A stretch of DNA of 51,600 nt from a virus (IMGVR_UViG_3300034101_003724:1-51600), one strand, 5' to 3'. Counted from the stretch's first letter, positions 1 to 51,600 are shown. Translations and numbers: made by a program. The notes: generated by a model from the sequence alone, not told the origin.

Positions 1-160
1 CACGGGTCCCACGGTCGTCGCCGCATACGGACCAGTCACACCATAGCCCTGGTGCGCTGCGAGTACTCGGACATATCCGTTGTCCTTGCTGAACAGCTGA
101 ACTCCGTTACGGGTAAGGCCGGTCATAATCTGACCGGTTCGCCTGAAGCACGTAACCGCA
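1..160. repeat. Left copy of 160-base terminal redundancy
   Basis: Bases 1-160 match 51441-51600 except at position 127 (A) versus 51567 (G). The copy lies inside a coding frame that continues through the join, so the simplest reading is a circular or circularly permuted genome written with an overlap. A true direct terminal repeat would leave the gene split at the ends. The single difference is silent (ATT or ATC, isoleucine, on the coding strand). Confidence 0.95.
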
Positions 161-1557
161 TCGCCGACGTTGCTTGGCTTGTAGATGCCGCTGGCCGTGA
201 ACAGCTCCGGACTGTCTGCTCCCCCGTAGCTCCACCGCGTCTCGCCAGTACCCGTCAGGTCGCTCGGGCTATCGCTGATGTTTCCCACCAGCATCGTGCC
301 GTCGAGCAGCGCACCCGCCCCGCCCTTTGGCATCTCGGTGCTGTAGCTCGGCTTGTCCAAGAACACGTCCTGCATCACCAGCGCGCTGTCAGTCAGCTGG
401 TACGCGTACCGGAAGTACTTGATGTTCGACCCGGACGGAAGCGTTCCACCGCTCACCGGAAGAGTGGTTGTGACATAGGAGCTCAGCGTGATCTGCGCCT
501 CGAGCTGCAGAATCCCGCCCGTATACGCACCGGCAGCGTTTCCAGTCCGCACGCTTCGATACACGTTCAGCGTGTCGTAGTAGTCGTTGTTGTAGATGCC
601 GTCGATCAGGAAAGCGTTGGAACCGCCAGTGAACGTCAGCTCGATGTTGGTCGTGAGCTGGCTCTTGCGCCCACTCCTCGTGTCCTCGAACTGCACCGCA
701 AGGCTGTACGTTCCCGCCAACTGGACCGGCGCAGTCGCAAAGTTGCTGATAGTCGCACCGGCCGGCTGGTTCGGGTTTGTAGTGGTCCTCGCAAACACGA
801 CGCTGCCAAGCGGATTACCGCCAGTCGTCGGGTTCGGGAACGGAGTGGTCAGAGGAGCGGCGGGCGCAAGGTTGTGCGTCGAGCTGGTGCCAAACGTACC
901 GGAGAACAGCGTTGACTTCGGAATGACACCGGGACCCGCGGGAGACACGAGCGTAGCCGGCGTGCTGCTAGTGCTTGCGACCTTGAAGTACACGGCAATC
1001 GGCGGCACACCGCGGCGGAAGATGTAGACCGCCTTGCCGGTAGTCTCCACGCTCATCACCGCCTTGCCCTGGTCCGCGAGCAGACTCGCCTCACCGGGCT
1101 GGATGTTTTCCTGCAGCAGGATCGTCCTGAACTGGGGAGTCGTAGTGCCGTTTGGCGCGTAGAACTCCATTATCAGGTCATAGTCGTTGTTGCAGGTAGG
1201 CGTCGTCATATCGTTCGGACGACGCACCAGGTACACGTACCCAAACACGCGGGTACTTGCGCCTGCGATTACGCTGAAGGACCAGAAGTCGACAACCCGA
1301 GAACGATGCGCAAGGCTTGTATACGGATTGCTTCCGGTAAACGAGATCCCGCCGTAGGTGCTGTTAACAGACTCCGGTGCAAATCGGTGGATCTCGCGGA
1401 AGCCGGGGAACGGCTGGATGCCGCCGTTGTTCGAGCCGTCGACCCCCACCAGCTCCGCGGCATTTGCAGCGGGAGTGCCGGTGCGTGCGGTTGCCTTGTT
1501 CTCGCTGGCGGTCAGGAGAGAATAAGTCCAAGTGACATCGGTTTCCGGGACCTGCAT
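1..1557 (-). CDS. Tail nozzle/stabilisation-like protein, N-terminal 519 codons (continues at 51440)
   Basis: The minus-strand frame opens with ATG at 1557, two bases after the stop of the Cys-rich gene upstream, and stays open to position 1. Because the window ends repeat, it continues in frame at 51440 and stops at 50268, giving 909 residues. The translation starts MQVPETDVTWTY and is rich in beta-forming Thr/Ser/Gly stretches, with repeated YFxYxY and LFSKDNGYV-like strands. A large beta-rich protein following the adaptor gene in a podovirus late operon fits the tail-tube B, nozzle or stabilisation class. That assignment rests on size, composition and position, not on a diagnostic motif. 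A Chi-type motif encodes LVG at 1446-1453. The left edge is the window edge, not a truncation. Confidence 0.85.
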   Translation of the reverse strand, partial: MQVPETDVTWTYSLLTASENKATARTGTPAANAAELVGVDGSNNGGIQPFPGFREIHRFAPESVNSTYGGISFTGSNPYTSLAHRSRVVDFWSFSVIAGASTRVFGYVYLVRRPNDMTTPTCNNDYDLIMEFYAPNGTTTPQFRTILLQENIQPGEASLLADQGKAVMSVETTGKAVYIFRRGVPPIAVYFKVASTSSTPATLVSPAGPGVIPKSTLFSGTFGTSSTHNLAPAAPLTTPFPNPTTGGNPLGSVVFARTTTNPNQPAGATISNFATAPVQLAGTYSLAVQFEDTRSGRKSQLTTNIELTFTGGSNAFLIDGIYNNDYYDTLNVYRSVRTGNAAGAYTGGILQLEAQITLSSYVTTTLPVSGGTLPSGSNIKYFRYAYQLTDSALVMQDVFLDKPSYSTEMPKGGAGALLDGTMLVGNISDSPSDLTGTGETRWSYGGADSPELFTASGIYKPSNVGDAVTCFRRTGQIMTGLTRNGVQLFSKDNGYVRVLAAHQGYGVTGPYAATTVGPV

Positions 1558-1559
1558 GG

Positions 1560-5034: not shown

Positions 5035-5586
5035 TTACACCGCCTTCGTCATTGACATGAGTTCGCTGACCGTCTCCGCGTACTGCTCGTTGCACTCGCT
5101 CGGAGCAGTCCAGCCAACCGCACCTGTCTCGAGCATCCGAGCGCCCTGCTCCATGTTGTGCTTCTTCATGTACTTGACCGCGTTCTTCTTGCTCTGGATG
5201 CGCTCGTCCTTCATGGCATTCCGGTGACTGGCTGCGCGACGCAGACGCTCCTTCATCGCAGCAACGGTCTCCTCCACTGGCCTGCACCTGGCGAGCAGTG
5301 CCTCCCCCACCAGCCGACCGCTTCCAGGCATGTCCGGAGGAAGGGGCATTGACTCGAGTTCAAGGGCAACAGGGCTATCGGTAATGGTGGGTGGAAAGAT
5401 CCACTTGGCAAGGACCCAGCTCTTTGCGAGCTTGTGGTGGTAGACAAAGAGGTCCTGGATGCCGGTCATACGCCTGGCATACCGAATCCACTCTCCGTCT
5501 GGACATACCTCATGCTCGTCTCCAATCGCGAGTCCGGCAAGGGAAGCCTCAGTCTTAGGGTCGAAGACAATCTCGATCTCGGTCAT
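5035..5586 (-). CDS. Hypothetical protein in the late operon
   Basis: 183 residues, ATG at 5586 overlapping the upstream stop as ATGA. The N-terminus (MTEIEIVFDPKTEASLAGLA) reads as a short beta unit. The second half is strongly helical and basic (VEETVAAMKERLRRAASHRN, then KKNAVKYMKKHNME) and could bind nucleic acid or pack along the inner capsid. A Chi-extended motif encodes RLVGEAL at 5307-5314. The family was not recognised. Position suggests a minor virion or assembly protein. Confidence 0.75.
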   Translation of the reverse strand: MTEIEIVFDPKTEASLAGLAIGDEHEVCPDGEWIRYARRMTGIQDLFVYHHKLAKSWVLAKWIFPPTITDSPVALELESMPLPPDMPGSGRLVGEALLARCRPVEETVAAMKERLRRAASHRNAMKDERIQSKKNAVKYMKKHNMEQGARMLETGAVGWTAPSECNEQYAETVSELMSMTKAV

Positions 5587-6004: not shown

Positions 6005-6025
6005 GACATGCTCCTTATCGAAAGT

Positions 6026-6049: not shown

Positions 6050-6084
6050 TGCGGGAGTCCCTGCCCGCCCACCCCTCAGGTGGT

Positions 6085-9323: not shown

Positions 9324-10220
9324 TCAGACCTTCGTTTCCCCACCAGCCGAGGAGTCCGCGGCAAGGCGGGAAAGCGCGTCAACGTTGAACTCGCGAACCG
9401 CAGTGTCCACCGACCCTCGGTCCATGCCCTTCTTGAATTCGGGGGGCGTGACCGGAGCCTTTGACTTGAGGAACTCGAGCTCGCCATCTGTTTCCGGCGA
9501 CCGGCCGAGGCCGTTGATGTCGCCGATGACCGTGCGATAATTTCCTGCAACAGCCTTCGCCGCCTTCGCGGCCTCGTCCGCGACCCAGTCCTCGCTGAAC
9601 CGTCCGCCCTCGGCATCACGCCGGGAGTAGAGGTTGCGGAGGGTGGTCTCGCGGACCTGCTCCTGCAGAGCTCGCCAGGCACCCGCCGCATGATCGCGGC
9701 CACGGGTCTTGTCGAGCGTTTCCAGCATCTTAACGATCTCCGGGTTCCCGTCAATGGCGGAAACCACGTTCTTGTCCATCTGTTCCTTGAGCAGGCGCAG
9801 TCGCAGCTCGTTGGTCTGCCGCAGGGCAGCCTCGGCACGCTCCTCCGCAGCCCGCGTGGTCTTCTTCAGCATCTGCTCAATCTGGGCTTCCTCGCTCACG
9901 TCGGCCTCCTGATCCCCATCATCCTCGCCATCCACGTACTCCTGCGCGTACTGGCGGGCCTCGTCGTCGCTGAACCCGGCTCCGCGCAGCACTTCATACG
10001 CCGCCTGAACGTCCGGGCTCTCGCCGCGCATCAGCTTCGTCGCATTGCTACGAAAGTTCTCAAGCGAACTGATCTGCTGACGAGCTTGCTCAACCTCTTC
10101 CCGGGCCTGCTGCTGCGCCTGGAGGATCTCGCCGAGGGTTGCGGTAGTGCCATCCTCGAATTCAAGTTCGGTGTCCAGATCGATTCCTTCGTCTGAACCA
10201 GTGTTCTGATCATCAGCCAT
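9324..10220 (-). CDS. Scaffolding protein
   Basis: 298 residues, ATG at 10220 overlapping the portal stop by eight bases. The protein is acidic at the start (GSDEGIDLDTELEFEDGTT), then strongly coiled-coil (LQAQQQAREEVEQARQQISS), with further Glu/Asp-rich and helical stretches (SEEAQIEQMLKKTTRAAEER) and a short C-terminal tail. Acidic, helical proteins of this length placed directly between portal and major capsid genes are classic scaffolds guiding procapsid assembly. No protease domain was seen. A Chi-extended motif near the C-terminus encodes SSAGGETKV. Confidence 0.8.
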   Translation of the reverse strand: MADDQNTGSDEGIDLDTELEFEDGTTATLGEILQAQQQAREEVEQARQQISSLENFRSNATKLMRGESPDVQAAYEVLRGAGFSDDEARQYAQEYVDGEDDGDQEADVSEEAQIEQMLKKTTRAAEERAEAALRQTNELRLRLLKEQMDKNVVSAIDGNPEIVKMLETLDKTRGRDHAAGAWRALQEQVRETTLRNLYSRRDAEGGRFSEDWVADEAAKAAKAVAGNYRTVIGDINGLGRSPETDGELEFLKSKAPVTPPEFKKGMDRGSVDTAVREFNVDALSRLAADSSAGGETKV

Positions 10221-12219
10221 TTGCTACTCCTTGAGGGGGTTGTGCTCCGGGACCGATCCGACCTGCGACCCCACCAGCCTGCTGGGGGTTGACGATTGCG
10301 ACGTCGTCGGGGTTCGGAACCATTGCGGGTAGGGACTGTCCCATGAACGAGATCAGGGACTCACGGTACGACTTGAACGCGTCCTGCACGGCAGGGCTCG
10401 CCAAAGTCATGATCGGGTTGGACATGAACGCGCTCAGCACGCGCAGCTGAAGGTCGGGCCGCGCCGTGTGCGGAGTCACGACGATCTGCTGGCTCTGCTG
10501 GCCGTCGCCGTAGAGCAGGAGGATGTTGCGGATGATGCTCTCATACGCGCTCTTCTCCTCCTCCATCCACATCGCGAAGTCGATGCCCTCCTTCATCGCG
10601 AACAGCTTCAGGCCCTCCGGGTCGGTGACGCCGGCCTGCAACAGGCCCATCGCCTCCTGCTTCCGCACCACCTCGCTGCGAGGGCTCGTGTCCTTGACCG
10701 TGAAGCTGATCTGGCTGAAGTTCGGGATCGGGTTCTTCTTGAAGTTGACCGTGCCCTCCTCGGGATCGATCACCGCACCCGCAAGGTCCAGAGTCAGCTT
10801 GTTGACCGGGATAGCACGGTCGCTGACCAACATCTCCCTGCTCGCCTTCTGAACCAGGCTCTTGTACATCCCGCCGAACGCGGCCTGCACGCCGCTGGTG
10901 GGGTTCGTCATCGCCTTGCTGATCTGCTCGTCGAGGAACTGCAGGCCGCTCGCGCTGTCCACCCGGCCCTTCTCCGCAAGCAGATCCTGCACCGGGCTCA
11001 GGCTATCGCTGATTGCCTTCGCGAACTGAGCGACCTTGCCGGGGACGTCGCCGGCATTGAACGGCTGGATCACGAGCGGCTTGAAGTCGTCGCCGAGCAG
11101 CGCGTCCTTGCTGTAGCTCATGTACCGCAGGCCCTTGCCGATGTCGCGCATCACCGCGCGCTCGTTGATCGTGCCCTGCGGCATGACCAGGACGCCGTAC
11201 TTGTCGATGTCACGGATGTTGTTGAACAGGCTCTTGAGAAGCCGCTCCATCTCGCGCACGATGCCGAACATCAGGTCAAACAGGCCCGCACCGTGGAACG
11301 TGCCATTGTCCATGAACCGGGCAAAGCCGATCGGGCAATACGACTCAACATCGTCAAGCTCAATGTCCTGAAGAACGATGTCGCCGCTCGAGACGACGTA
11401 GCGACTGACGGTTCCGCGAGGGCCGTCAAGCCAGAGTTCCCTCACCTTGACGACTTCCAGGTCGCTGTCGTTCGGGATTCCGTTCATGGCTCCGCTGCTT
11501 GCGGAACTGAGGATGTAACCGTTGCCGGGACTGTCGGCCGGCTCTTCCATGTCGTGGCCATACTCCCAGCTCCATGCGTCCATGCGCTCCTTGTTTCGAT
11601 TGATGACCTTGTCACCGAACCGATCGCGAAGGAACTTCATGGGCACGACTCGCTGGCGAATCATGCCGCGTGCCTTGGTGTGATCCATCCCGAGGCTCGG
11701 GAACGGCAGCAACTCCTTGGGGTGAACAACCTCAAGATCGCTCGTCAGGCCGATGGTGGGGTGATCCACCATGTGCCCGGTGATCCCGCAAGATCCCATC
11801 AGGGCAAACACGTAGTTGAAGTCGCGCTTCACCTTCTCCAGCTGCTGGTCGCTCACGACCGCATCCGCCACCAGCTGCGCAACGCTGCGCTCCCGGATCC
11901 CGGCAAGGCTATAACCCTGCCTCAGTGCACGGGGGCGCAGGTCCATCGTGTTCAGTCGCGCCGTCGTCTTGTCGATGATCGACATGAGCTCCGTGCTCTG
12001 GAACTCCATGTTCCCCTCTTCATCGAGGTAGTGAGGCACGACCCTTGCAGTCCTCGGATCGAAGACATCAAACCGGCGGAAGCCGTTGAGGTAGTACCAC
12101 GCCAGGATCCACAGCGTCCTGCGATACGTGAGCTTCGTAAGCTCTCGCTCGCAATGCTGGTCGATGATCCGACCGAGGATGTTCTTGTCTTTCGGGAGCG
12201 TGTAACCGTCAGTTGCCAT
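10213..12219 (-). CDS. Portal (head-tail connector) protein
   Basis: 668 residues, ATG at 12219. It starts with a basic helical region (NILGRIIDQHCERELTKLTY, then RRTLWILAWYYLNG) like podovirus portals. It carries long helical stretches and a central segment (MDNGTFHGAGLFDLMFGIVR) resembling the conserved portal core where the ring contacts DNA, and ends in a Gln/Gly/Pro-rich tail. Gene order (terminase, small gene, portal, scaffold, capsid) strongly supports the call. The portal forms the twelve-subunit DNA channel at the capsid vertex. The C-terminus includes a Chi-type motif (QQAGGVAGR). Confidence 0.85.
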   Translation of the reverse strand: MATDGYTLPKDKNILGRIIDQHCERELTKLTYRRTLWILAWYYLNGFRRFDVFDPRTARVVPHYLDEEGNMEFQSTELMSIIDKTTARLNTMDLRPRALRQGYSLAGIRERSVAQLVADAVVSDQQLEKVKRDFNYVFALMGSCGITGHMVDHPTIGLTSDLEVVHPKELLPFPSLGMDHTKARGMIRQRVVPMKFLRDRFGDKVINRNKERMDAWSWEYGHDMEEPADSPGNGYILSSASSGAMNGIPNDSDLEVVKVRELWLDGPRGTVSRYVVSSGDIVLQDIELDDVESYCPIGFARFMDNGTFHGAGLFDLMFGIVREMERLLKSLFNNIRDIDKYGVLVMPQGTINERAVMRDIGKGLRYMSYSKDALLGDDFKPLVIQPFNAGDVPGKVAQFAKAISDSLSPVQDLLAEKGRVDSASGLQFLDEQISKAMTNPTSGVQAAFGGMYKSLVQKASREMLVSDRAIPVNKLTLDLAGAVIDPEEGTVNFKKNPIPNFSQISFTVKDTSPRSEVVRKQEAMGLLQAGVTDPEGLKLFAMKEGIDFAMWMEEEKSAYESIIRNILLLYGDGQQSQQIVVTPHTARPDLQLRVLSAFMSNPIMTLASPAVQDAFKSYRESLISFMGQSLPAMVPNPDDVAIVNPQQAGGVAGRIGPGAQPPQGVANG

Positions 12220-12457
12220 CTTGCTTTCGCTTCCTTAGGGACTTCCATCCGGGCGGCATGTCCTCAAAAAGTTCGACACCCTTGAGGTTGAACGACGATG
12301 CAGGAGTGGGATCAGGCTGCGGGACCTTCTGATCAGAAGGAGTAGCACTCATCCCATCCGGGATCTCTTGCCCATAATAAGCCTGAGCAAGCATCTGGAA
12401 GTATACGAAAGGAATCGTGACGTAAAGAGGGTTAGACCCGCGATCCGCGTTTTGCAT
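12209..12457 (-). CDS. Small protein between terminase and portal
   Basis: 82 residues, ATG at 12457. It overlaps the terminase stop by 26 bases and the portal start by 11 bases, so translation is likely coupled. The sequence contains a hydrophobic N-terminal stretch (YVTIPFVYFQMLAQAYYG) followed by a Pro/Ser-rich linker and a charged end (PPGWKSLRKRKQDGN). It is not recognised; genes in this slot are often head-completion or packaging accessory factors. Confidence 0.7.
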   Translation of the reverse strand: MQNADRGSNPLYVTIPFVYFQMLAQAYYGQEIPDGMSATPSDQKVPQPDPTPASSFNLKGVELFEDMPPGWKSLRKRKQDGN

Positions 12458-14369
12458 TGTTCTCTCCTGACATGCCCTCGAGAAGTGTCGTGAGCGGCAT
12501 GTTATTGAAATTCATGGCTTCCACGGCAGGAATACCCCCACCAATCGAGTCCCCGATGGTTCCGTCCGCAATCATCTTTGAGAAGTCAAGGCCCTGCTCT
12601 TCACCCACAATCTGCCTGTCCAAACGGCCCCTGACCACGAACATGCTCATGGCCACGGTGTCGATGAAGTCGTCGTGCTGGAGGCCGCCACTTTCCGCGT
12701 CCGGGTTGAACTGCTCGATCTGGTCGAACAGGAGACGCCACGGGAGCTGCCCCCTGCGCCACGTGGGGAACTTTATGAGCCCGTGCTCGAACCGGTAGTG
12801 GAGGGCGTTGATCTTGGCCGTCTTGTCCAGCGTGCCCACACGCAGGGGCACGATCCTGGGCGGGATCTCTCCGGTCACCTCGGCTGCCTTCTGGCGGACC
12901 ATAGACTCCATCGCGCTGTACAGGCCGAAGGACTGCCGCACCACCTCCGGATGGATTGCCGGACACCCCCACCTGCCTGACATGGCGAACGACTGCTCGA
13001 TCAGCTTCTGCTCCCGGCACTGGGCTCCCCACGTATCCAGCACGAACAGGCACGCGTCCACCGGGTCGTATCCCATGAGCGTACAGACCTTGAAGTCGCT
13101 GTCGCTCGTCGCCGTGTAGCTGGTATCGACGGTGATGAACATCCGGACCCGGTCCTTCAGGAACTGGGCCAGCGGCATCTTTTCAAGCAATCCGCTCTTC
13201 CCGTTCCAGCAAATCGTCGCTTCGCTGCGCTTGGGATCCGTATCTACGAGAGGGTCTGGGTTCTCCAGCCACCAGCCGTGCTTGGCCGTGGACACCTCGC
13301 CGAAGTGCAGGTCCTCGGCCTCGCCGGGCTGGGCCAGGTACTCGGCCATGTAGTTGTGGCTGCCGATCATCTCCCGGATCTCCTCCAGGCTGACTAGCCC
13401 CTTCAACTTGGGATCCGTATCCTTCGACTTCCGATCCAGCGGCCACATGCCAGGCCAGCAGGACTTCCGGACACCCTCCTCCTCGTACTCCGCCTTCAGC
13501 ACCAGGCGCGCCCACTGGTCGAAGCGGGGATCCCTCGCCACCGGGCCGGTGGGGGTCGGCTCCGTCGCCATCGCGTGCCATGCGTAGTGCCGCCGGCTCA
13601 CGAAGGTAGCCAACCACCGGACGCTCGTATCGCGCCGGGTCACCATGGGGATGACCACCTTGAACAGCAGGCGCTCCATGTACGAGCGCAGGATGCTCAT
13701 GCTTGTGCTGGCCTTCGGGTCGTACTCCGGGTCATCGAGCGCGTACACGCGGGGACGCCCGCCACGCTGCCTGCTCTCGGCGCTGATCGCCCGGAACCAG
13801 CTGCCGTTGTTCAGGTACATCATCTCCACGCCGAACGATCGCTCGCCGCGCTTCGGCGTGATCCGGCCATCCGGGAACTCGGGACCCCAATCGTCCGCAA
13901 GACGCTGGTTGCCGAGGAACTGGGTCTTCAGGACCTGGCTTGTCTGCTCCGCGTTGTCCCCGCTGCTCGTGGCGTAGATGAAGGAGTACGCCGGGCGGCT
14001 AACCATTTGCAGGAGTGCCGACTTTCGGAAACAGTTGCTCTTCGCGAAACCGCGTGGTGCGATTGCCACGCTCTTGCTTGCGAGTGCCCACAGCCGGTAG
14101 ATGGCGAAGTGCCCGAGCGGCGACTCGATTGGGTCATCGTCGTAGAAGTATGGGTTGAAGTCCTCGTCCCAGTCCGGGTACAGGTAGTACCGGTCGAAGA
14201 AGTTGATGCACGCGGCAAGCGCATGCGCTCGGTCAGAGGGATCGCCGCCGAGCTGCCACTGCTTGCACGCGTTGACGCGAGCCAGTCGCTGTCCCTCGGG
14301 AGTCAGCGTCAGGTAGTCCGCAGGCAGCGGGTATAGATCATTTCCGTGTCTGTCGATCCTAAGCGTCAA
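12432..14369 (-). CDS. terL: Large terminase subunit (ATPase and nuclease)
   Basis: 645 residues. The frame begins at TTG 14369, overlapping the upstream stop as TTGA; no in-frame ATG lies near. ATPase motifs are visible: Walker A-like PRGFAKS at residues 105-111 and Walker B VYALDD at 208-213. The nuclease domain shows FITVDTSYT with the metal-binding aspartate near 415 and a late QHDDFIDTVA motif near 590, as in RNase H-like terminase nucleases. The enzyme pumps genome concatemers through the portal and cuts them. A GGCTGGTGGG stretch sits just upstream of the TTG and may act as part of its ribosome-binding region. Confidence 0.93.
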   Translation of the reverse strand: MTLRIDRHGNDLYPLPADYLTLTPEGQRLARVNACKQWQLGGDPSDRAHALAACINFFDRYYLYPDWDEDFNPYFYDDDPIESPLGHFAIYRLWALASKSVAIAPRGFAKSNCFRKSALLQMVSRPAYSFIYATSSGDNAEQTSQVLKTQFLGNQRLADDWGPEFPDGRITPKRGERSFGVEMMYLNNGSWFRAISAESRQRGGRPRVYALDDPEYDPKASTSMSILRSYMERLLFKVVIPMVTRRDTSVRWLATFVSRRHYAWHAMATEPTPTGPVARDPRFDQWARLVLKAEYEEEGVRKSCWPGMWPLDRKSKDTDPKLKGLVSLEEIREMIGSHNYMAEYLAQPGEAEDLHFGEVSTAKHGWWLENPDPLVDTDPKRSEATICWNGKSGLLEKMPLAQFLKDRVRMFITVDTSYTATSDSDFKVCTLMGYDPVDACLFVLDTWGAQCREQKLIEQSFAMSGRWGCPAIHPEVVRQSFGLYSAMESMVRQKAAEVTGEIPPRIVPLRVGTLDKTAKINALHYRFEHGLIKFPTWRRGQLPWRLLFDQIEQFNPDAESGGLQHDDFIDTVAMSMFVVRGRLDRQIVGEEQGLDFSKMIADGTIGDSIGGGIPAVEAMNFNNMPLTTLLEGMSGENNAKRGSRV

Positions 14370-18021: not shown

Positions 18022-19437
18022 ATGACAGACTGGTTGCAGCAGCCGTTGCAGTCCCTCGAACCCGTGAAGGTTGCGAGGAGGATCCTGCAGAGACAGTTTA
18101 CAGCACCCGGCGGAATGCGCGGGCTATGGAGATGGAAGAATGACTGGTGGAGCTGGGAGGGCGGAACGTGGCGCGTGCTTGATGAGGAGCGGATCCGGGA
18201 CCGGGTGTGGCTCGTGCTCGAGGACGCCGTGTTCGAGCGGCAGACCCAGAACGGGCCCGTGCTCGTGCGATACAGCCCAGACAAGCAGAAGGTCGACGGG
18301 GTCGTCCGTGCGCTCGAGGCGCTGGTTCGCATCGAGGCTGAGGAGGTTCCGCTCTGGCTTGCGGAGCCGGATGAGCGTTTCCCCGTTGGGGAGACTGTTG
18401 CTTTCCGAGATCGGCTGGTTAATGTAAGGACGCTAGAGACCATGGAGCGACCGGCTCGGTGGTTCGACACGGCCATCCTGCCGGTGACGTACCAGCCGGA
18501 TGCCCCCACCAGCCGTTGGTTGCAGGCGGTGTCGGAGTGGGGCGAAGGGGATCCCACGTGGGCAGAGCTGCTGTCACGGTGGATGGGTTATTGCCTGATG
18601 GGTAGCCGCAAGTATGCGCGGTGGATGCTCATGTACGGGAAGATCCGTGGCGGTAAGGGCACGATCAGCAGCGTGATCCGGAAGCTCGTGGGTCGCGATG
18701 CGTTCATGGGCGCAAGCTTGGAAGACCTGGCCGGCGGGTTCGGCATGGATGGGCTGGAGCGCACGAAGGTGCTGAGCATCAACGAGGTGAGCGAGCTGGA
18801 TGGGAAGAGCGGCGAGCGGGTGTGCAGGGTGGTGAAGAACATCGTGGGCCGGGACCCGATGACCGTGGATGCAAAGTACATGAGGCAGCAGCGGAACGTG
18901 ATCGTGAACGCGGCGGTCATCATGCAGAGCAACGAGATCCCCGTGCTGCCCAATAAGGGGCGCGGGCTGAGCGGGAAGATGCTGGTGCTGCCCTTTGAGG
19001 TCAGCTTTGAGGGCAAGGAGGACCTGGATCTGGAGGGTGAGCTGGATCGGGAGCTGGCGGGTATTGCGGCGTGGGCGGTTGCTGGGGCGCATCGGCTGGA
19101 GAACAGCCGGGCCAGCGAGAGGTGGCCGGTGCCGAAGGCTGCGGAGCGGGCGGTTCACATGTACCACCTGCAGAACAACCCGTTCGATGCGTTCCTCGAG
19201 GCGCGGTTCGTTAGGAGGAAGGACGGGTTTGTCAGTAATGGGATGGTCCGGGCGCAGTGGGATGCGTGGACCAAGGCGAACAAGATCCGGATGCACGTGG
19301 CAAATAACATGCTGCCGATGAAGATCGCGCAGGGCAGCAGCTGGGACCTGAGGCAGGTCAGGCTGGCGGAAAGTCAGGGGCATGAGCGGGGAATTGCTGG
19401 GATGAGCCTCCGGAAGGAGTACGATGATGAGCACTAG
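18022..19437 (+). CDS. D5-like SF3 helicase (replicative helicase/primase-associated)
   Basis: 471 residues, ATG at 18022 preceded by AAGGAGAG. The N-terminal 180 residues fit the D5_N region that precedes SF3 ATPases in phage and plasmid replication proteins. Walker A appears as GKIRGGKGT at residues 206-214, followed by FMGASLEDLAGGFGM, an acidic Walker B-like segment (VLSINEVSEL) and an Asn-containing sensor region (VIMQSNEIPVL), as in the P4/D5 group. It likely unwinds DNA at the replication origin. The phage encodes a DNA polymerase I-type enzyme but no visible DnaG-type primase. First gene of the plus arm. Confidence 0.88.
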   Translation: MTDWLQQPLQSLEPVKVARRILQRQFTAPGGMRGLWRWKNDWWSWEGGTWRVLDEERIRDRVWLVLEDAVFERQTQNGPVLVRYSPDKQKVDGVVRALEALVRIEAEEVPLWLAEPDERFPVGETVAFRDRLVNVRTLETMERPARWFDTAILPVTYQPDAPTSRWLQAVSEWGEGDPTWAELLSRWMGYCLMGSRKYARWMLMYGKIRGGKGTISSVIRKLVGRDAFMGASLEDLAGGFGMDGLERTKVLSINEVSELDGKSGERVCRVVKNIVGRDPMTVDAKYMRQQRNVIVNAAVIMQSNEIPVLPNKGRGLSGKMLVLPFEVSFEGKEDLDLEGELDRELAGIAAWAVAGAHRLENSRASERWPVPKAAERAVHMYHLQNNPFDAFLEARFVRRKDGFVSNGMVRAQWDAWTKANKIRMHVANNMLPMKIAQGSSWDLRQVRLAESQGHERGIAGMSLRKEYDDEH

Positions 19438-22138: not shown

Positions 22139-22174
22139 CCCCCACCAGCCTCTGCTTCAGCACGCTGGTGGGGG
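22139..22174 (+). terminator. Hairpin built from two opposed Chi-type motifs
   Basis: CCCCCACCAGC (22139-22149) and GCTGGTGGGGG (22164-22174) form a perfect 11-base stem with a 14-base loop after the preceding stop. Both arms are the genome's repeated motif (GCTGGTGGGG and its complement), so the site is at once a terminator-like hairpin and a two-way Chi pair. No long T run follows (ACGTGTTTCC). Confidence 0.7.
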
Positions 22175-34775: not shown

Positions 34776-35232
34776 CCTCTGGCTGGTGGGGTGCAGCGAG
34801 CTCGCGAAGGTGAGCGAGAACGCGACGGCCATCCAGGCCGAGTCGCAGTCACTTATAGATCACGGGCGGATGGTGGGGGACAAGGAGGTGGTGACCCGTG
34901 CCGGACGCATCCACGATCTTGCTGCTGACATCCATGGTCGGATACCTCATCTGGAGGACAAGACCCCCGTTTGGTTATCCACCCTATGGTGGGCTGCGGC
35001 GGCAGTGGCACTCATCGCCGTCGCCGTCATCCTCTGGCAGACGGGCTTGGGCACGGCTGTCCGAGTCGCAATTGGCTGGCTGCCGCGCCGAAAGATCCAA
35101 GACGCGAACCTAGCCGCCGGCATGTTGGATCCAGATAAACCTGAGGATGCCCGCGAGTACGTCGCTGCGCGGCGGGCATCTGACCCCGAGTTCGACGCTG
35201 CGTGGCGACGTGTCCACAAGAAAGGTTCATAA
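34729..35232 (+). CDS. Unimolecular spanin-like lipoprotein
   Basis: 167 residues, ATG at 34729, overlapping the holin-like gene by 47 bases in another frame. The N-terminus has a lipoprotein signal (SSASLILATSLWLVGC) with lipobox LVGC and Cys22. A Ser at +2 predicts outer-membrane delivery. A helical periplasmic segment of about 60 residues follows, then a transmembrane span at 83-103 (WLSTLWWAAAAVALIAVAVI). Outer-membrane lipid plus inner-membrane span is the layout of u-spanins, which fuse the two membranes at lysis. The unusual part is the 64-residue cytoplasmic tail. LVG is encoded by a Chi-extended motif (34782-34789). Confidence 0.7.
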   Translation: MNGWTRSSASLILATSLWLVGCSELAKVSENATAIQAESQSLIDHGRMVGDKEVVTRAGRIHDLAADIHGRIPHLEDKTPVWLSTLWWAAAAVALIAVAVILWQTGLGTAVRVAIGWLPRRKIQDANLAAGMLDPDKPEDAREYVAARRASDPEFDAAWRRVHKKGS

Positions 35233-36873: not shown

Positions 36874-38109
36874 ATGCCCCCACCGACCCAGACTGTCCAT
36901 TACCCCACCAGCATCTGCGATCCCAATGTCCGCCCATGGCTGGAGGCACACGGCATCTTTGCCCGTAAGCCCCCCATCCGCAGCAGCGACTACCGGCTCG
37001 TCCGCTCGTGCCCCCGCACCTACTACCTGTCACGCCGGCTTGGCCTGGTCAAGGCGTTCCAGTACAGCGCGGCCCTGACCCGGGGCAGCTGGGTCCACCT
37101 CGCGTTCGCCTGCATCCTCGATGACCCCACCGACCGGGCACTGACCCTCGAGCAGGCCATTGCCGCACGCTGCGAGGAACTGCGCGGAGTGTGCAAGCAG
37201 CTCGGCGTGTCCGGCGAGAAGACCAGGGAGATGATCGCCCGCGAGGAACTGGACGCCCGCACCAGCATTGCGTGGTTCAACGCTGCCCTCCAGATCACGG
37301 ACGGCAGCGGACGCACCCTGGCCCAACGCTTCGCGGAGGACTGGGTCGTGGTCGCGCAGGAGCCCGAGATCCGCCACGGCGATCGACTGATCCAGCCCGA
37401 CTGCCTGCTCAAGGACAAGGCCGGCAAGCTGTGGATCGTGGACTTTAAGACCACCGGCATGTCCACCAACGCCCGCCTGCAAACCTGCCCCCTCGAGTTC
37501 CAGACCCAGCACTACTTCCACACCTTCCTCGACAAGTCCCGTGACGAGGCTGACTTCGCCGGGCAGTACGGCATCAGCTGGCCCGGAGAGATTGGTGGGG
37601 TCCTGCACGTCGCGATCCGCAAGCCGTCCATCGAGTTCGGCATGAAGGACCGCCCGTTCACGCTGGACGAATCGCCGTTCAAGAGCGGCCCCCGCAAGGG
37701 CGAGCCGCGTAACGAGCGCATCTACACGGGCGAGCCTGACCCGTACCTGTACGAGCAGCGTTGCGTGGATTGGTACATGGGTCGCGGAGAGTACAGCCAC
37801 TTCGAGCCCGAACGGCTGACTGACCCGTGCGTTGCGATTTCCACCACATCCGCGGAGCTTTTGCTTGCGGAAGATCTCAAGTCGGAGTACCATGCTCGCC
37901 TGTCCTTCATCCGGAAGTACACGAGCCTCCAGTCCTATCCCAGCGAATTCGAGATTGGTGATCCGGTAGTCCAGCACGGGACTCCGTCGCCGTACCTCCC
38001 GTTCCACATGGTCGAGCCTGGCAAGTGGCCCGAGTTGATCCTGGCTGAAGGGTTCCTGCAGAGAGACAGAGACACCCACACGGAGATCGACAATGGAGGA
38101 GACGCCTAA
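36874..38109 (+). CDS. PD-(D/E)XK exonuclease, RecB/Cas4-like
   Basis: 411 residues, ATG at 36874 with AGGAG upstream. An N-terminal RSCPRTYYLSRRLGL motif resembles the SxCPxxYY entry of Cas4/RecB-like nucleases. Around residues 174-192, LIQPDCLLKDKAGKLWIVDF ends in DFK, the catalytic core (Asp, then D-x-K). Several cysteines occur but no clear iron-sulfur set. It is followed by a Sak4-like ATPase and an SSB-like protein, so it likely resects ends for phage recombination. It overlaps the next gene by 17 bases. Confidence 0.85.
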   Translation: MPPPTQTVHYPTSICDPNVRPWLEAHGIFARKPPIRSSDYRLVRSCPRTYYLSRRLGLVKAFQYSAALTRGSWVHLAFACILDDPTDRALTLEQAIAARCEELRGVCKQLGVSGEKTREMIAREELDARTSIAWFNAALQITDGSGRTLAQRFAEDWVVVAQEPEIRHGDRLIQPDCLLKDKAGKLWIVDFKTTGMSTNARLQTCPLEFQTQHYFHTFLDKSRDEADFAGQYGISWPGEIGGVLHVAIRKPSIEFGMKDRPFTLDESPFKSGPRKGEPRNERIYTGEPDPYLYEQRCVDWYMGRGEYSHFEPERLTDPCVAISTTSAELLLAEDLKSEYHARLSFIRKYTSLQSYPSEFEIGDPVVQHGTPSPYLPFHMVEPGKWPELILAEGFLQRDRDTHTEIDNGGDA

Positions 38110-38623
38110 CCCCACCAGCCAGGAAGCAGGAAAGTCCGTCCTCGGGCCCGTCATCTGGCAAGAGGTCCTGCGCAAGGTGATCGCGCCCAAGGTCACGGTC
38201 ATCGTCACGCAGTACGGCAACGACATCGAGAACCGGCAGCAGCTGCACCGCAAGTTCTGCGAGGAGTACGGCATTCGTCCGTCCTACTCCACCTTCAGCA
38301 GCTGGTGCGAGGATCTGGGCATCAGCTTCCGCAAGAAGATCGAGGTCCACATTCCCGGCTGGAAGGAGATGCCGCGACCGACCGCCGAGTTCATCGGTCC
38401 GATGCCGGCATATCAGGCAACAGAGACGAAGAAGGAACAGTCGGTAGCGAAGCAGATCGTTCCGGCAATTCTTCAGGAAGAGGAAGATGCACCGATTGTC
38501 TGGGACACGAAGGTACCGCCTCAGAAGCCATCGCAGAAGTTCAATGAAGATGGGATGCCGACCATTCTTCCCGGAGGGATGAGGATGCCCTCGTTCTTTG
38601 ATTCCGGAAACTACGGCAACTAA
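38093..38623 (+). CDS. Hypothetical protein between exonuclease and recombinase
   Basis: 176 residues, ATG at 38093. The first half contains VIWQEVLRKVIAPKVTVIVT and a helix-rich region (NRQQLHRKFCEEYGIRPSYS) that could hold a DNA-binding fold. The second half is acidic and Pro/Gly-rich. It may link or regulate the recombination proteins. No confident family. A Chi complement at 38112 encodes NPTSQE in its N-terminus. Confidence 0.7.
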   Translation: MEETPNPTSQEAGKSVLGPVIWQEVLRKVIAPKVTVIVTQYGNDIENRQQLHRKFCEEYGIRPSYSTFSSWCEDLGISFRKKIEVHIPGWKEMPRPTAEFIGPMPAYQATETKKEQSVAKQIVPAILQEEEDAPIVWDTKVPPQKPSQKFNEDGMPTILPGGMRMPSFFDSGNYGN

Positions 38624-39618: not shown

Positions 39619-40140
39619 ATGCCCATTGAGAACAACGTCAAGGCCATGTTCAACTCGCTCAACACCGCGTTCGCGCAGGCTCAGCCCGACAACGGCATGG
39701 GTGCTGGCGGCTGGTGGCCGGCAGAGGGTCAGCACGAGGTGTTCGTGTCCGCCCTGAACGTGCGCCCCAGCGAGTACAAGCTGCCGGACGGCCAGAAGGT
39801 TGCCGGCACGGAGATCAGCTTTCGGTACCAGCTCATCAACGACACCGACTCCCCCAACGAGCCGCGCTCGTTCGACGGCAGCGCCTTCCGCCTGCCGCAG
39901 GACACCAGCGTCCTCGACGACAAGGGTCGCATGCGCGTTGACATCGAGATGCGCCGCCTGAAGGGCCACCTCCAGACCATCCTCCGCCGTGACGTCAAGG
40001 ATATCGGAACCGCTATCGCGGACGCCGATGCCAAGATCAACGGTCAGGACGCGGTCGCCGTCGTCGTGAAGTGCCAGTACGACAACGTCAACGGAAAGAT
40101 CTACCGCAAGGACTTCCTCGTGAAGCCCCTTGCCGGCTGA
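39619..40140 (+). CDS. SSB-like protein (DUF669-type)
   Basis: 173 residues, ATG at 39619 with CGGAG upstream. It contains an N-terminal helix (MPIENNVKAMFNSLNTAFAQ), a beta domain (GQHEVFVSALNVRPSEYKLP, then TEISFRYQLINDTD) and a late KCQYDNVNGKIYRKDF. Phage proteins with this order next to Sak4-type ATPases are usually single-strand DNA binders. Terminators follow directly. The DUF669 comparison is tentative. Confidence 0.7.
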   Translation: MPIENNVKAMFNSLNTAFAQAQPDNGMGAGGWWPAEGQHEVFVSALNVRPSEYKLPDGQKVAGTEISFRYQLINDTDSPNEPRSFDGSAFRLPQDTSVLDDKGRMRVDIEMRRLKGHLQTILRRDVKDIGTAIADADAKINGQDAVAVVVKCQYDNVNGKIYRKDFLVKPLAG

Positions 40141-40169
40141 TCTGTTACACTACCCAGACCCCACCAGCC

Positions 40170-40725: not shown

Positions 40726-41158
40726 ACACGGACTATCCGCCGTCATCTCCCGACACTCCGGTGAACCCCTCTCCATCACCGGACCCTCCCCCTTCACCGA
40801 CACCACCGAACCCCTCCACGCCTACGCCGGTATCTACCGCGCACCCACAGGCTGGTGGGGCATCGTCGTCCACTGCCCACGCGGCACGCACCCCCAGCAC
40901 GCGATCCAGCACTACGAGGCAGACACCACCCCTGTCCTCTGGATCACACCAGAAGCGAGCATCGGGCTCTACCGGTTGCCGTCCAACGAACTCGTAGTAT
41001 CAGCTCGAGTACCTCCTCTGGCAATCGAGGCAATGACACAGGTGATCGCTGACGAGACTGGTCGCGACTTTGCGGAGAGCCGATTCAATCGCAGGCGCGT
41101 ACCCGCGGGCGTGCGATGGCTGCCCGGCAAGCAGATGCAGCTCTGGTTCTCGCTCTAG
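40712..41158 (+). CDS. Hypothetical protein, last gene of the plus arm
   Basis: 148 residues from GTG 40712. It ends four bases inside the converging minus-strand gene. A Trp/Gly-rich centre (TGWWGIVVHCPRGTHPQHA) includes a Chi motif read in the GWWG phase. The C-terminus is basic (RRRVPAGVRWLPGKQMQLW). No family was recognised. No terminator separates the two converging arms here. Confidence 0.65.
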   Translation: MHQSEHGLSAVISRHSGEPLSITGPSPFTDTTEPLHAYAGIYRAPTGWWGIVVHCPRGTHPQHAIQHYEADTTPVLWITPEASIGLYRLPSNELVVSARVPPLAIEAMTQVIADETGRDFAESRFNRRRVPAGVRWLPGKQMQLWFSL

Positions 41159-44100
41159 CGATTGCCCCAGCGGTACATGTCGCCCTGCTCGACCGGCTGA
41201 CCGGGAACCCCACCAGCCATGAGCTGACCAGGCAGGGTCTCCTCAACCGCCTGCTGGTACACGTCTCGCGCAGTCTTGTCGATGCTCTCGAGCGTGCGGC
41301 CCACGACGCTCTCCTCGCGGAGCTTGATCGCCTGCTTCATCTGCTCCTGCGTCACCGTCAAGGGTAGGCCGAATCGCTTCTCGAAGTTCACCTTTACGCG
41401 CTTGGCGGCACCCATGTTGTTGCCGAGCACGGCTGCGATGTACTGCCGACGACCCTCGCGGATCGCGTCGCGGTTCTTCAGGAGGAACTGGCTCAGCTCC
41501 TGCGGCTGGCTGAACCGACCCATGTCCGCACCGAACGACCGAAGCACCACGTCGCTGGTGGGGTACTGTCCCATGAACCGACCGTCCGTGTTGTACACGG
41601 GCACCATGCCGCTCTCTGACTGCCGCCAGTCCGCATACGTCCGCTGGAGCCCCAGCACCTGCAACGGCTCAGAGGGAGGCAGCGTGCCGATCAACCGGCT
41701 TACCGCAACGCCGCCCGGGATGATGCGCGGAAGGATGTCCTGAAGGATCTCGCCGTCGCCGGTACCCAGATACTTCACCGCGTTCCAGCCAACGTCCACC
41801 ACGGGCGGGATGTAGAGCGGGGGCTGGTCGCCCTGCAACGCCTGCTGTCCCCCCACCAGATCCGTCATGCCGAACGCAAGGCCACGGCTCAGGTCCACGC
41901 CGAGCGCGTTCTTGCCGACCTCGTAGGCCACCGCGCTGACCGCCATCAGCTTCGCAAGGTCCTGCAGCACGGGCGCCCGTCGATTCGGATCCACGATCTT
42001 CGGGATCGCGAACACGTTGGTGAACGACCGGAGACCGTACTGCGCGAACTGGCGGAACGCGGGGTTGCGTAGACCAGGCAGGTAGAACATCGCGGGCCTG
42101 TTCAGCGGGCTGCTGCCGAACTGGAACATCTGCACGGCCTGGAACGCGTCCTGACCGGCACGCACAGCGTCGTCCGCACTGACCCGTCCTGCACGCTCGT
42201 AGGCGTTCAGCATCGCGTTCGCGGTCACCGTCCGGTTCAGCGTCTCGCTGAGCTGGAACGGCTTCATCAGCGTCTCGAGCAGGTTGAACTGCGGCTTCCC
42301 CACCAGCGGAGCCGTGCCGTACCCCGCCTGCTCCACCATGCCCCACGACGAGCCGATGTCCGCAAGAGACGAGACGTCGATGGACCCGGCACCGAACCGG
42401 CGCTGGAACGCGGTGCTCATCGCAGTCCGGATCTGCGCGGGACTCGCGCCGGGACCGAGCTTGCGGCGCACCTTCATGTACTCGCCGATCTGCTCGAAGC
42501 TCTGTGCGTAGGCCTTGACCGTGTTCTTGAACCCCAGTTGGTGAATGCTCTGGAGGGGCTGCAGCAGGTTGATGAGCACGGTGCCCATGTTCAAACCCAT
42601 GTGGCTGCCGTACATGAGGCGCGTCACGGACTGCCACGGCAGGAACTCGTCGCCCGCCAGGTCGTTGCCCCACGCCCGCATCTGCTGCACGAACTGGGCC
42701 GCGTACTTGCCCTGCCTCTCGACCGCACGCATGAACCGGCTGTCAGCCAGCCGTCGTGCGCCCTCCCGCGCAAACCCCGCAGCTGCCCTGTGCGCCGCAT
42801 CGTCCGCCGGCTTGATGCCAAGCGCAGCGGGAATGATGTTCGTCCGCCACTGATGAACGATGTGCTTGTCCTGCGGATTCGCATCGGTCATGGCCTGCAG
42901 GTCGGCCTCGATGAGGTCGTACCTGTTGTAGCGACCCACCGGCCGAAGATCCTCGGGCACCTCCGCCAGGTTCCGCACCCCTGCCGGCGCGCCCACAAGC
43001 GACCGACCGAGCGGACCCGGCAGCCTGGTGGGGACCCGACCGCCAGGGCTGAAGTCCCGCACGATTGCCTGCGTCTCCGGGTCGTTCGTCACGTCCTTCG
43101 TGAAGATCGCCCAGTCCCTCGACACGCTCGCCACGTACTTGCTTGCCGCGATGTCGGGCGCGACCCGCATCACGCGGTACATGTTGCCCTTGTCCTTCTG
43201 GCCCTGCACGCGCATCTTGGACGCGTTGATCAGTGCCTGCGCAAACCGGTTGCCGCCGAACCGTTCGCTCATGTACTCGAGGTCGCCTGGATCCCAGCCG
43301 ATCTGCGTCGTGCGGCTACGCATCATGCCGCGTCCGCTGGGGATCATCTCCGCGCCCTGCGTCACGTCAGTCGCGGCCTCGCCCGTGTACGGGTTGTAGG
43401 CCATCCGCCTGCCGAGATTGTCGTATGCCTCGACCGTGTTACGGGGCATGTAGTAGGGGTCCTGGAACGCCTGCTGATAGGCATCGACCAGAACGTCCTC
43501 GATCTCCCGCGACGTCGCACCCCGCTGGATTCGGGTGCCCCTGCGCTTCTCCGCGGACTTCATGAGCCGCGAGCTGATCTCGTCGCTCAGAAGCAGACGC
43601 ACCGCGTCCTCACCGCCGCTCACGATCTGACCGTTCTCGGTCATGTAACCGGCCTTCTTCAGTCCGTCGATCTTGCCGCGCACGAGGTTCAGCACCTTTG
43701 CCCGATCGAGCCTGAATCCCCCACCAGCCTCGTAGACAGCCTCGTCGCCGGCAAGGAGAACGCGGCCAAGCTCGTACAGGCCACGCTCCGCGTCCTGGAA
43801 CGACCTCAGCCCGAACTCCCCCTCGACCGCCTGCATCGCCGCCTCGTCATCGAACATCTTGTGGCGCTGGATATCCTCGAACTTGACCTTCACGCCACCC
43901 TGCTCGATGTCCGCCATGCTTAGCGTGGCGTTGGGCCCGCCGACCAGCGACTCCTGATCCTTCGGCAGACCGGGCTGGAACTTGATCCGGGTCATGCCCA
44001 GACGTTCCATCGACTGCTTCATGTTCTCGGTCCGGGTTACGCCGGGCATCTGCTCGAGCGCAGCCGAGTGCTTGTCGAGAGTCAGGAAGTTCTTGTTCTT

Positions 44101-46158: not shown

Positions 46159-46585
46159 CGATGCCCTCCACGAGCTGGATGATCTCAATCGGGCTCAGGG
46201 TCCTCGGACTCTGCAGCTGAGCGATGCGCGCAGTACTGCCGGCAAGGATCTTCTCGAGCTCCTGGTCGTACACCGAGCGCCGACGGTCAAGCCGCTCAAG
46301 GTCGCCGCCGAGGTCCGCGTACTGCTGGGTCAACTCCTGCTGCCGAAGCAGCCCCGCAAGACCCATACCCCCACCAGCCCCCATCAGGCCTTCTTCACTC
46401 ATTCCGCCGCGCATCATCTTGCGCTGGTCGAACTCGTCCTGAATCTCGAGCTGGCGGCGCATCATCCGCTCCTGCTCCTCCTCGCTAGGCATCCCGTTGC
46501 CCGAAAGAATAAACGGAAGGGAGCCGGCAAGACCACCAGCAACAGTGAGTCCAAGAGGAGCAAGTGCAGCAAGGAACCCTGGCAT
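46151..46585 (-). CDS. Small protein with N-terminal membrane span
   Basis: 144 residues, ATG at 46585. The N-terminus (MPGFLAALAPLGLTVAGGLA) is hydrophobic, followed by an acidic/Met-rich helical region (SEEEQERMMRRQLEIQDEFD) and a further coiled coil (YADLGGDLERLDRRRSVYDQ). It might be a membrane-active ejection protein or a minor virion protein. It overlaps both neighbours, so it is coupled in the late operon. A Chi site encodes GAGGGM. Confidence 0.7.
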   Translation of the reverse strand: MPGFLAALAPLGLTVAGGLAGSLPFILSGNGMPSEEEQERMMRRQLEIQDEFDQRKMMRGGMSEEGLMGAGGGMGLAGLLRQQELTQQYADLGGDLERLDRRRSVYDQELEKILAGSTARIAQLQSPRTLSPIEIIQLVEGIGG

Positions 46586-46914
46586 TATGCGTTCTCCGTA
46601 AACACGATTGCGTCTTCCGCCTCAGGCGAACCGATGCGACCCACCTTGCCTACCCAGCTGGTGGGGGACTTCCGCTCGACGTACACCAGGACATCCGACT
46701 CGCGCCAGACGGGATCGTACCGCACTTCCCACAGCCAGCGACGGATTCCCTTGGGAGTCAACTTGCTGAACTCGCGGTCGAGCTGGCCGACCGGCAGGAA
46801 GCCCTTGCCCCCCACCAGCCCGAAGCCGTTCTCCACGGCGGGAGTGACAAGACCGACGCCGAACTTGTGCGCCATGTCGCTCAGGAACCGGCTCATCGCC
46901 TTCCAGTCGCTCAC
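46585..46914 (-). CDS. Small virion-region hypothetical protein
   Basis: 109 residues from GTG 46914, overlapping the preceding stop (GTGA). Centre and end (FLPVGQLDREFSKLTPKGIR, WLWEVRYDPVWRESDVLVYV) are mixed alpha/beta. It contains two Chi-type sites, read as LVGG and PTSWVG. Unknown function. Confidence 0.7.
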   Translation of the reverse strand: MSDWKAMSRFLSDMAHKFGVGLVTPAVENGFGLVGGKGFLPVGQLDREFSKLTPKGIRRWLWEVRYDPVWRESDVLVYVERKSPTSWVGKVGRIGSPEAEDAIVFTENA

Positions 46915-49765: not shown

Positions 49766-50268
49766 CGGAATCCTCCAAACCCGCGGCCATCACCAAAGCC
49801 CTCCGACACCTTCGGCTTTCCGTAGTTCATGCTCGGCTGAAATGCGCCCGCAGTCTCGTTGCGTCCGCGTCCGCCGCTGGCACGACCGAACTGACCCATC
49901 GACGACTTGCGCTGCGAAGCATCCCGCATCCGCGTCTCTTGCTCGAGCGGACGATTGCCGCCGGTATAGCCGTACCCAGTGACCTGAGGCATTGCTCGAG
50001 CCTGAGCCGCCCGTTCTGTCGGACCCATCATAGGCTGACGAGCAGCCTGCTGCATCCCGCCGAATAAACCCGCAAGCTGCGAGAAGAAGTCGCCACCACC
50101 GGGCATCCCGCCGTAGGACGGCATAGGAGTAGGCGCTGGGGCAGGAGCCATAGCCGGCATCATTGCTGGATTGTTGTATGTCAGCCCTCCGGTCATCGGG
50201 TCAACATAGGTCGGCCGGATGTACTGCCGGTCGTTGATCGCATTGAACATCGGGATGTTGAAGGGCAT
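49762..50268 (-). CDS. Gly/Pro/Met-rich small virion protein
   Basis: 168 residues, ATG at 50268 in a TAATG overlap with the nozzle-like gene. It starts MPFNIPMFNAINDRQYIRPT, then a Pro/Ala/Met-rich stretch, a Gly/Gln/Met-rich hydrophobic part (FFSQLAGLFGGMQQAARQP) similar in style to its downstream neighbour, and an Arg/Gly-rich end (RASGGRGRNETAG). Unknown function; its composition suggests a shared origin or partnership with the 406-residue protein. Confidence 0.7.
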   Translation of the reverse strand: MPFNIPMFNAINDRQYIRPTYVDPMTGGLTYNNPAMMPAMAPAPAPTPMPSYGGMPGGGDFFSQLAGLFGGMQQAARQPMMGPTERAAQARAMPQVTGYGYTGGNRPLEQETRMRDASQRKSSMGQFGRASGGRGRNETAGAFQPSMNYGKPKVSEGFGDGRGFGGFR

Positions 50269-51600
50269 TAGTACGTTCTCCGGGTGCGGTCCGTTGGGAG
50301 GATTCTACCCTTTACCTGGACCCCCACCAGCCTGTATTTCAGGTTCGGGATCCATGTTTCCACGAAGGGAGAGAACCACTGACCGAGGATTCCGTGCTTG
50401 CCGAAAGCAACCCAGTTCGGGGTATCCCCGCGCTGAATCGACTTCTCAATCAGATTCCCGCTCGTGTCCAGCGGGACGTCTTCAAGGATTGGAGCTGACT
50501 CGTTTTCCCGGTAGATGCCGGCATACCAGTAACGGAACTGTCCCTCCTTACCGACAGTCACGCTGACATCGGTAAACACCGCTCCGATGCTGGTGGGCTG
50601 CTTGACCACGAACTCTTCGTCCTTGCTCTCAGCCAGGCGCATCGGAGCCCCCACCCACCGAACGAACACCGGATCCAGCACAATCGTGGAATCAACCACG
50701 GGAGCGTCGGTGTTGGTCGCCGGCTGAACGGCACCAAGCACGATCTGGTTGCCATTGGCGTCCAGAATCACGCTCTTTGCGCCAAAGTTGGACTTGCTGC
50801 TTCCGCCGGCCACGTATACGGACGCACCAATCATTCGGACCGCAACTGCAGCGCTGTTTGTAAACGGATTCTTGGTTCCGAAAGAACAGGTCCTTGCCTT
50901 GTTCGTCCGCGTCTGAAGAGTGCAAGTGTTGTCGTAGAACGTGTAGCTGCTCGTCACAATCGAGTCGAGATTCGAGCTGTGCGTCGCCTCGCAGTCAAGC
51001 ATGGTGACAATCGGAGTAGTCCCGGCCTCCGGGTAACTCTTGTCGCCATATGTCCGGCAAGGCATATACACCGCCGGCCTGAATGCCGTGTTCGTCACCA
51101 CGTCCGGAAGCGGAGCGTTGAACAAGAACAGGGCGCGTGGCACAAGCTGGCCGTCCGCATCCTCCCACCAGCCCTGCGTCACCTTCGCGAAGCTCATGTC
51201 TTGCAGCTCGCTCACCACACCCGTCGAGAACCACATCTGCACCGACTGCTGGCGGGTGGGGTTCAGAACGTACATGCACAGCGTAGCGGGATCGAACGCC
51301 ATGCTGACCTTGCTCAGCTCCTGCGCACCAGTCGTACCCGAGTACCACTGCTCGCTCACGAGCTGGTTAATCGACTGTACGTCGTCTAGCCGTCCGTCAG
51401 GGTAGATCGCCTTCAGACCCCGATAGTTCATGAAGTACGTCACGGGTCCCACGGTCGTCGCCGCATACGGACCAGTCACACCATAGCCCTGGTGCGCTGC
51501 GAGTACTCGGACATATCCGTTGTCCTTGCTGAACAGCTGAACTCCGTTACGGGTAAGGCCGGTCATGATCTGACCGGTTCGCCTGAAGCACGTAACCGCA
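50268..51600 (-). CDS. Tail nozzle/stabilisation-like protein, C-terminal part
   Basis: Continuation of the gene starting at ATG 1557. Within this piece the frame is open from 51600 to the stop at 50268; positions 51441-51600 are the second copy of 1-160. An ATG at 51566 is internal, not the start. The C-terminal part has YFMNYRGLKAIYPDGR, a cysteine-containing middle (MLDCEATHSS, YDNTCTLQTR) and a long beta-rich end (IGAVFTDVSVTVGKEGQFRY, WIPNLKYRLVGVQVKGR). Together the two parts give 909 residues. Confidence 0.85.
   Translation of the reverse strand, partial: AVTCFRRTGQIMTGLTRNGVQLFSKDNGYVRVLAAHQGYGVTGPYAATTVGPVTYFMNYRGLKAIYPDGRLDDVQSINQLVSEQWYSGTTGAQELSKVSMAFDPATLCMYVLNPTRQQSVQMWFSTGVVSELQDMSFAKVTQGWWEDADGQLVPRALFLFNAPLPDVVTNTAFRPAVYMPCRTYGDKSYPEAGTTPIVTMLDCEATHSSNLDSIVTSSYTFYDNTCTLQTRTNKARTCSFGTKNPFTNSAAVAVRMIGASVYVAGGSSKSNFGAKSVILDANGNQIVLGAVQPATNTDAPVVDSTIVLDPVFVRWVGAPMRLAESKDEEFVVKQPTSIGAVFTDVSVTVGKEGQFRYWYAGIYRENESAPILEDVPLDTSGNLIEKSIQRGDTPNWVAFGKHGILGQWFSPFVETWIPNLKYRLVGVQVKGRILPTDRTRRTY
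51441..51600. repeat. Right copy of 160-base terminal redundancy
   Basis: Matches bases 1-160 except G at 51567 where the left copy has A at 127. Circularising at this overlap restores one continuous coding frame. Confidence 0.95.

Follow-up and report, generated by a model that had tools for sequence, protein, structure and literature searches.

A selected, genome-wide array of probable Chi-like signals with lineage-specific words in a family of uncultured phages

Analysis of the window (the whole IMG/VR virus record, 51,600 bases) revealed a genome-wide array of a short, asymmetric G-rich word that is under selection at the level of DNA, and comparison with related contigs revealed that every branch of this uncultured phage family keeps its own selected Chi-like word, an observation that is new here. 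Such an array probably represents Chi-like signals acting at DNA ends in phage recombination, and the word of the window is best described as one member of a lineage-specific series rather than as E. coli Chi with a tail.

Counting over the whole window and both strands yielded 38 exact copies of the E. coli Chi octamer GCTGGTGG (13 on the plus and 25 on the minus strand), 27 copies of the decamer GCTGGTGGGG (8 and 19, respectively) and 18 copies of GGCTGGTGGGG (3 and 15), in exact agreement with the hand counts of an initial annotation. The individual positions named there are also correct, minus-strand copies having been given by the start of the octamer. Reversed, as a control, the decamer has 0 copies in the window, and the commonest octamer, above GCTGGTGG, is TGGTGGGG. 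The array of its cores and the decamer copies are located as follows:

1..51600, array of 47 TGGTGGGG cores, 16 plus and 31 minus, mean gap 1.1 kb, largest gap 3.4 kb
1444..1453, minus strand, GCTGGTGGGG, word count
5305..5314, minus strand, GCTGGTGGGG, word count
9338..9347, minus strand, GCTGGTGGGG, word count
10269..10278, minus strand, GCTGGTGGGG, word count
10894..10903, plus strand, GCTGGTGGGG, word count
18504..18513, minus strand, GCTGGTGGGG, word count
22140..22149, minus strand, GCTGGTGGGG, outside called genes, with a plus-strand copy nearby
22164..22173, plus strand, GCTGGTGGGG, outside called genes
24854..24863, plus strand, GCTGGTGGGG, outside called genes
25623..25632, minus strand, GCTGGTGGGG, word count
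27844..27853, minus strand, GCTGGTGGGG, word count
28379..28388, plus strand, GCTGGTGGGG, word count
29470..29479, minus strand, GCTGGTGGGG, word count
31442..31451, minus strand, GCTGGTGGGG, word count
34782..34791, plus strand, GCTGGTGGGG, outside called genes
36903..36912, minus strand, GCTGGTGGGG, word count
38110..38119, minus strand, GCTGGTGGGG, close to the p176 gene start, just beyond the exonuclease gene
40159..40168, minus strand, GCTGGTGGGG, outside called genes
40851..40860, plus strand, GCTGGTGGGG, outside called genes
41208..41217, minus strand, GCTGGTGGGG, word count
41554..41563, plus strand, GCTGGTGGGG, word count
42298..42307, minus strand, GCTGGTGGGG, word count
43719..43728, minus strand, GCTGGTGGGG, word count
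46369..46378, minus strand, GCTGGTGGGG, word count
46657..46666, plus strand, GCTGGTGGGG, word count
46810..46819, minus strand, GCTGGTGGGG, word count
50322..50331, minus strand, GCTGGTGGGG, word count

The preferred left flank of the TGGTGGGG core is GG(C/T). Around 67 GGTGGGG sites, the left side prefers GG(C/T)T, the right side shows little beyond a weak G/T adjoining the core, and the second base of the decamer is loose enough to allow GTTGGTGGGG. Thus, a TGGTGGGG core with a left flank of its own means that E. coli Chi with two added Gs is too simple a description of the array. This part of the original proposal falls away, whereas its description of a selected, genome-wide and Chi-like array is upheld by the shuffles and by the retention of sites in relatives.

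The excess was assessed against 200 shuffles, each preserving every protein, codon counts and dinucleotides. The expected number of copies was 7.2 vs. 38 observed for GCTGGTGG (a fair value of about 7, so that the earlier expectation of "near 3" was too low), 0.78 (maximum 4) vs. 27 for GCTGGTGGGG, 0.33 (maximum 2) vs. 18 for GGCTGGTGGGG and 3.4 (maximum 9) vs. 47 for TGGTGGGG, and an excess of the word over codon-preserving shuffles is observed in the window as well as in five relatives. Since the shuffle counts are far below those observed, the array is genuine and does not stem from codon usage; over-representation of a short asymmetric word beyond codons and dinucleotides is also what is looked for in Chi sites. 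Genes were called by a simple hexamer model (63 rough calls covering 88% of the window), and 36 of the 47 TGGTGGGG copies fall inside them, with 28 of these 36 sharing one codon register (e.g., CCC-ACC, PTS). Thus, the initial claim that the array goes beyond codon usage holds, but the different coding phases invoked for it are not evenly used. A compositional or codon artefact could draw on this dominant register and on the G-rich strand skew that exists in the window; it is nevertheless refuted by shuffles that never gave more than 4 decamers vs. 27, and retention of the word in relatives at 2–3 times that of other octamers (see below) likewise argues against it.

The same gene calls bear on the idea of dispersed repressor or silencing sites resembling the stoperators of cluster A mycobacteriophages, which are found mainly in short gaps, oriented with transcription. 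An asymmetric word present in many copies, 11 of 47 outside called genes, would suit such sites, but the majority of copies in the window are intragenic, with 19 running opposite to the gene and 17 along it, and the proteins scanned gave no recognisable integrase or repressor, all of which makes this explanation highly improbable. The spacing of TGGTGGGG copies is weakly more regular than random.

Selection on the word is evident from pairwise alignments with relatives. A search with the window terminase returned 25 related contigs (56–100% identical), and in alignments with eight terminase relatives TGGTGGGG is kept at 56–84% of aligned sites, vs. 21–28% for all octamers at about 80% DNA identity (50% in the closest relative, G006). 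Retention above background is also found in most pairs compared in other lineages; the G030/G037 pair, with twelve sites, shows no excess (2/12 vs. a background of 0.145). Retention above that of ordinary octamers indicates that the DNA word itself is selected. Between one sixth and almost half of the TGGTGGGG sites differ between relatives with copy numbers still high, which means that the positions of the word turn over. The alignments therefore reveal the combination of DNA-level selection and positional turnover that is sought in Chi sites.

More distant relatives were reached by searches with the DNA polymerase and the exonuclease, the polymerase-based loci ending short of the terminase gene. 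The corresponding genes of the window are:

12432..14369, minus strand, terminase large subunit, whose coding strand is the majority motif orientation
27587..29659, plus strand, family A DNA polymerase, query for distant relatives
36874..38109, plus strand, PD-(D/E)XK exonuclease (PDDEXK_1), the gene that opens the recombination block

For the majority of the longer distant relatives, the top over-represented octamer is G-rich and differs by lineage, and the top word of full-length members is G-rich throughout the lineages of the family; these relatives share common ancestry, so that their word counts are not independent, and several of the records are fragments. TGGTGGGG is the word of the window clade and of G019, G020 and G038, AGAGTGGGGG is that of AT-rich relatives (39–41% GC), other lineages have AGTGGGGGGA, CTAGTGGGGAA, TGGGGGGAC or TGGGGGGAG, and AGCGGGGAA is the top word in two relatives. 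A GYGGGG core is common to most of these words over phage GC contents from 39 to 64%. The E. coli octamer is not the conserved unit, being outnumbered by TGGTGGGG in the window and absent from the words of the more distant relatives. The polymerases of G019, G020 and G038 are 27–34% identical to that of the window, and their exonuclease and Sak4 55–69%, from which the polymerase appears to have been swapped.

The top-octamer z-scores of full family genomes (9–30) compare with 6.2 in phage lambda and a median of 6.6 in 12-kb pieces of unrelated viral contigs. The high-z unrelated contigs that were inspected are L243 (tandem repeats), L172 (a P1-like phage rich in Chi) and L263 (promoter-like repeats, with several CAGTATAagGTTAATAAT on one strand at 5616–10476). 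A pair scan found no unrelated phage with the same word among the matches listed, which were one member of the family, tandem repeats, G041 (a compositional case) and G042 (a phage rich in repeats); G042 (L283–L286) is a viral contig of 72.8 kb in which short inverted repeats, CCCCAC...GTGGGG, are dispersed. No known phage kin was found by DNA for the first 25 kb of the window or by INPHARED protein searches with the terminase, a 1235-aa protein, the exonuclease and Sak4, and a polymerase protein search against known phages gave distant matches alone (about 20–30% identity).

The word is modestly biased in orientation, being found more often on the strand that codes for terminase in nearly every genome (about 2:1) whatever the local gene direction, and this bias does not flip along the genome. 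In most genomes it is no greater than base skew would give: the excess over composition is significant only in G032, G033, G036 and G037, and in the window clade the ratio equals the prediction from strand composition. In lambda, whose TerL is on the plus strand, RecBCD loads at the right end, the end that terminase does not hold, and Chi is met from its 3' side (PMC2082072). The majority orientation in the family is the one in which Chi is active in lambda, a suggestive correspondence. As to genome form, a minus-strand gene appears to be split over the record ends (1–1557 and 50268–51599), and in the relative G003 the two ends adjoin each other, so that the window looks like a circularly permuted, near-complete genome.

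A bias that keeps one direction along the genome could also be expected if the word were a start site for lagging-strand priming by a phage prim-pol with a D5/DUF5906 helicase, and such a D5-type primase-helicase is encoded in the window:

18022-19437, D5/DUF5906 helicase, 471 aa, Pfam matches helicase-type only

The mean spacing of 1.1 kb would suit Okazaki fragments as well. Known phage primase sites, however, have 3–5 bases vs. the 8–11 bases constrained in the family, the sites occur on both strands throughout, the words differ between lineages, and the 471-aa protein has no Pfam match of primase type; we therefore regard priming as improbable.

Under the preferred reading as Chi-type signals, a helicase-nuclease or another DNA-end-processing protein would travel along phage DNA from a double-strand end and, on meeting the asymmetric G-rich word, would stop degradation and start strand exchange. 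Ends may arise in replicating or packaging phage DNA, and with words about once per kilobase those broken or newly cut could be saved within a few kilobases and channelled into recombination by the phage Sak4/exonuclease or by a host recombinase. The action of the reader at DNA ends and the outcome, protection plus recombination, are what we infer.

The initial annotation was right to name both a host RecBCD and a phage protein as candidate readers. A host RecBCD/AddAB-type enzyme is a possible reader, proposed tentatively: phages are known to use such arrays through a host enzyme of this kind, those without RecBCD inhibitors keeping host Chi (PMC3784561), and the P1-like phage G055 (L172, 90,090 bases) shows that such a density occurs. 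G055, which is related to Cronobacter phage JK004 and P7, has 80 copies of GCTGGTGG on both strands (reversed control 3), or 0.89 per kb over 90 kb, near the density of the window, so that dense host Chi does occur in phages; unlike the window, it has the exact E. coli-type Chi and is akin to enterobacterial phages, and no relationship to the window family was found. Weighing against the Chi-type reading, the phage proteins scanned included no recognisable helicase-nuclease, the orientation bias of the window clade stays within base skew, and the matches listed by the pair scan gave no unrelated phage with the same word.

A prophage search of genome contigs pointed to a single MAG with a family phage (G039; Myxococcales, NP1036), in which a phage of about 48 kb is binned as contigs C7, C18 and C72 (L273, L274 and L152). 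Phage contigs hold 29 of the 36 copies of GTGGGGGGA in the bin, the other about 3.5 Mb hold 7, and the reversed control occurs 12 times in the whole bin. Thus, if this MAG is the host, its own genome is not enriched in the phage word, which would speak against a host reader, although binning may misplace phage contigs. Other host clues were sought in tRNA genes, which are absent from the window and its relatives, and in plasmid relatives of the DUF6915 and DUF3085 proteins, which were scattered among taxa and of no use.

Alternatively, the same signal function could have a phage-encoded reader, a protein of the recombination block, most plausibly p176, that would bind the word and load or arrest the phage exonuclease/Sak4. 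The exonuclease is followed in this block by:

38093..38623, plus strand, p176, small fast-evolving protein with a three-helix, helix-turn-helix-like core, candidate phage reader
38645..39544, plus strand, Sak4-like single-strand annealing/recombinase protein (AAA_24)
39619..40140, plus strand, p173, unnamed, after Sak4, present in nearly all lineages

No motif lineage lacks the exonuclease, p176 or Sak4, and this holds also for G019, G020 and G038 with their different polymerase. Relative to G019, p176 is 32% identical, vs. 56% for the exonuclease and 65% for Sak4, and is thus among the least conserved of the block, and its predicted structure has a confident helical core (residues 21–80, pLDDT about 90–96). 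The best fold matches of the exonuclease are Cas4-family, MGME1 and AdnAB proteins, with low TM-scores for a middling-confidence model. A phage reader is further favored by the MAG's own DNA lacking the phage word, which rests on binning, and by the stability of the GYGGGG core in most lineages despite their range of GC; word and protein drifting together would give each lineage its own word. On the other hand, p176 tracks motif distance (Spearman 0.48) no better than several structural genes (0.54–0.64), with no gene, p176 included, singled out by the gene-by-gene comparison; fold searches with p176 gave no significant match, DNA-binding or other; and a small helix-turn-helix protein reading an asymmetric word would be unusual. 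Reading by a phage protein is rather unlikely, and we are equally doubtful that an exonuclease-p176-Sak4 complex forms the phage's own Chi system, with word and reader co-diverged per lineage independently of host Chi. Elsewhere in the window, a DprA-like protein (24895–25527) lies near a uracil-DNA glycosylase-like gene (25531–26205) and an ERCC4-type nuclease (31515–32225).

Like E. coli Chi read by RecBCD, the array consists of an asymmetric, over-represented G-rich octamer in genes and gaps, with exact GCTGGTGG among its copies; unlike it, the core in the window is TGGTGGGG, the words of relatives are not Chi, and the density is 0.9 per kb in the window vs. 1 per 5 kb reported for E. coli (PMC8022716). 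Rec+ Inh- lambdoid phages (PMC3784561) also have selected Chi arrays, some with Sak4-type recombinases, but their word is the known Chi of the host and the same across phages, whereas that of the window family varies by lineage. The Chi words of H. influenzae (GNTGGTGG), B. subtilis (AGCGG), L. lactis (GCGCGT) and S. aureus (GAAGCGG) (PMC8022716) resemble the family words in being short, asymmetric, G-rich and species-specific, but none contains GTGGGG, whereas most of the family words have a GYGGGG core across very different GC.

Very few bacteria have a known Chi word (PMC8022716), and in phages, as far as the literature is known to us, Chi has been described only as copies of the host word. 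If read by hosts, the family arrays would disclose, in one step, the Chi words of numerous uncultured hosts and thus serve host prediction; if read by the phage, the family would represent a self-contained phage Chi system. Either way, the evolution of Chi specificity becomes testable via a natural series of words and proteins.
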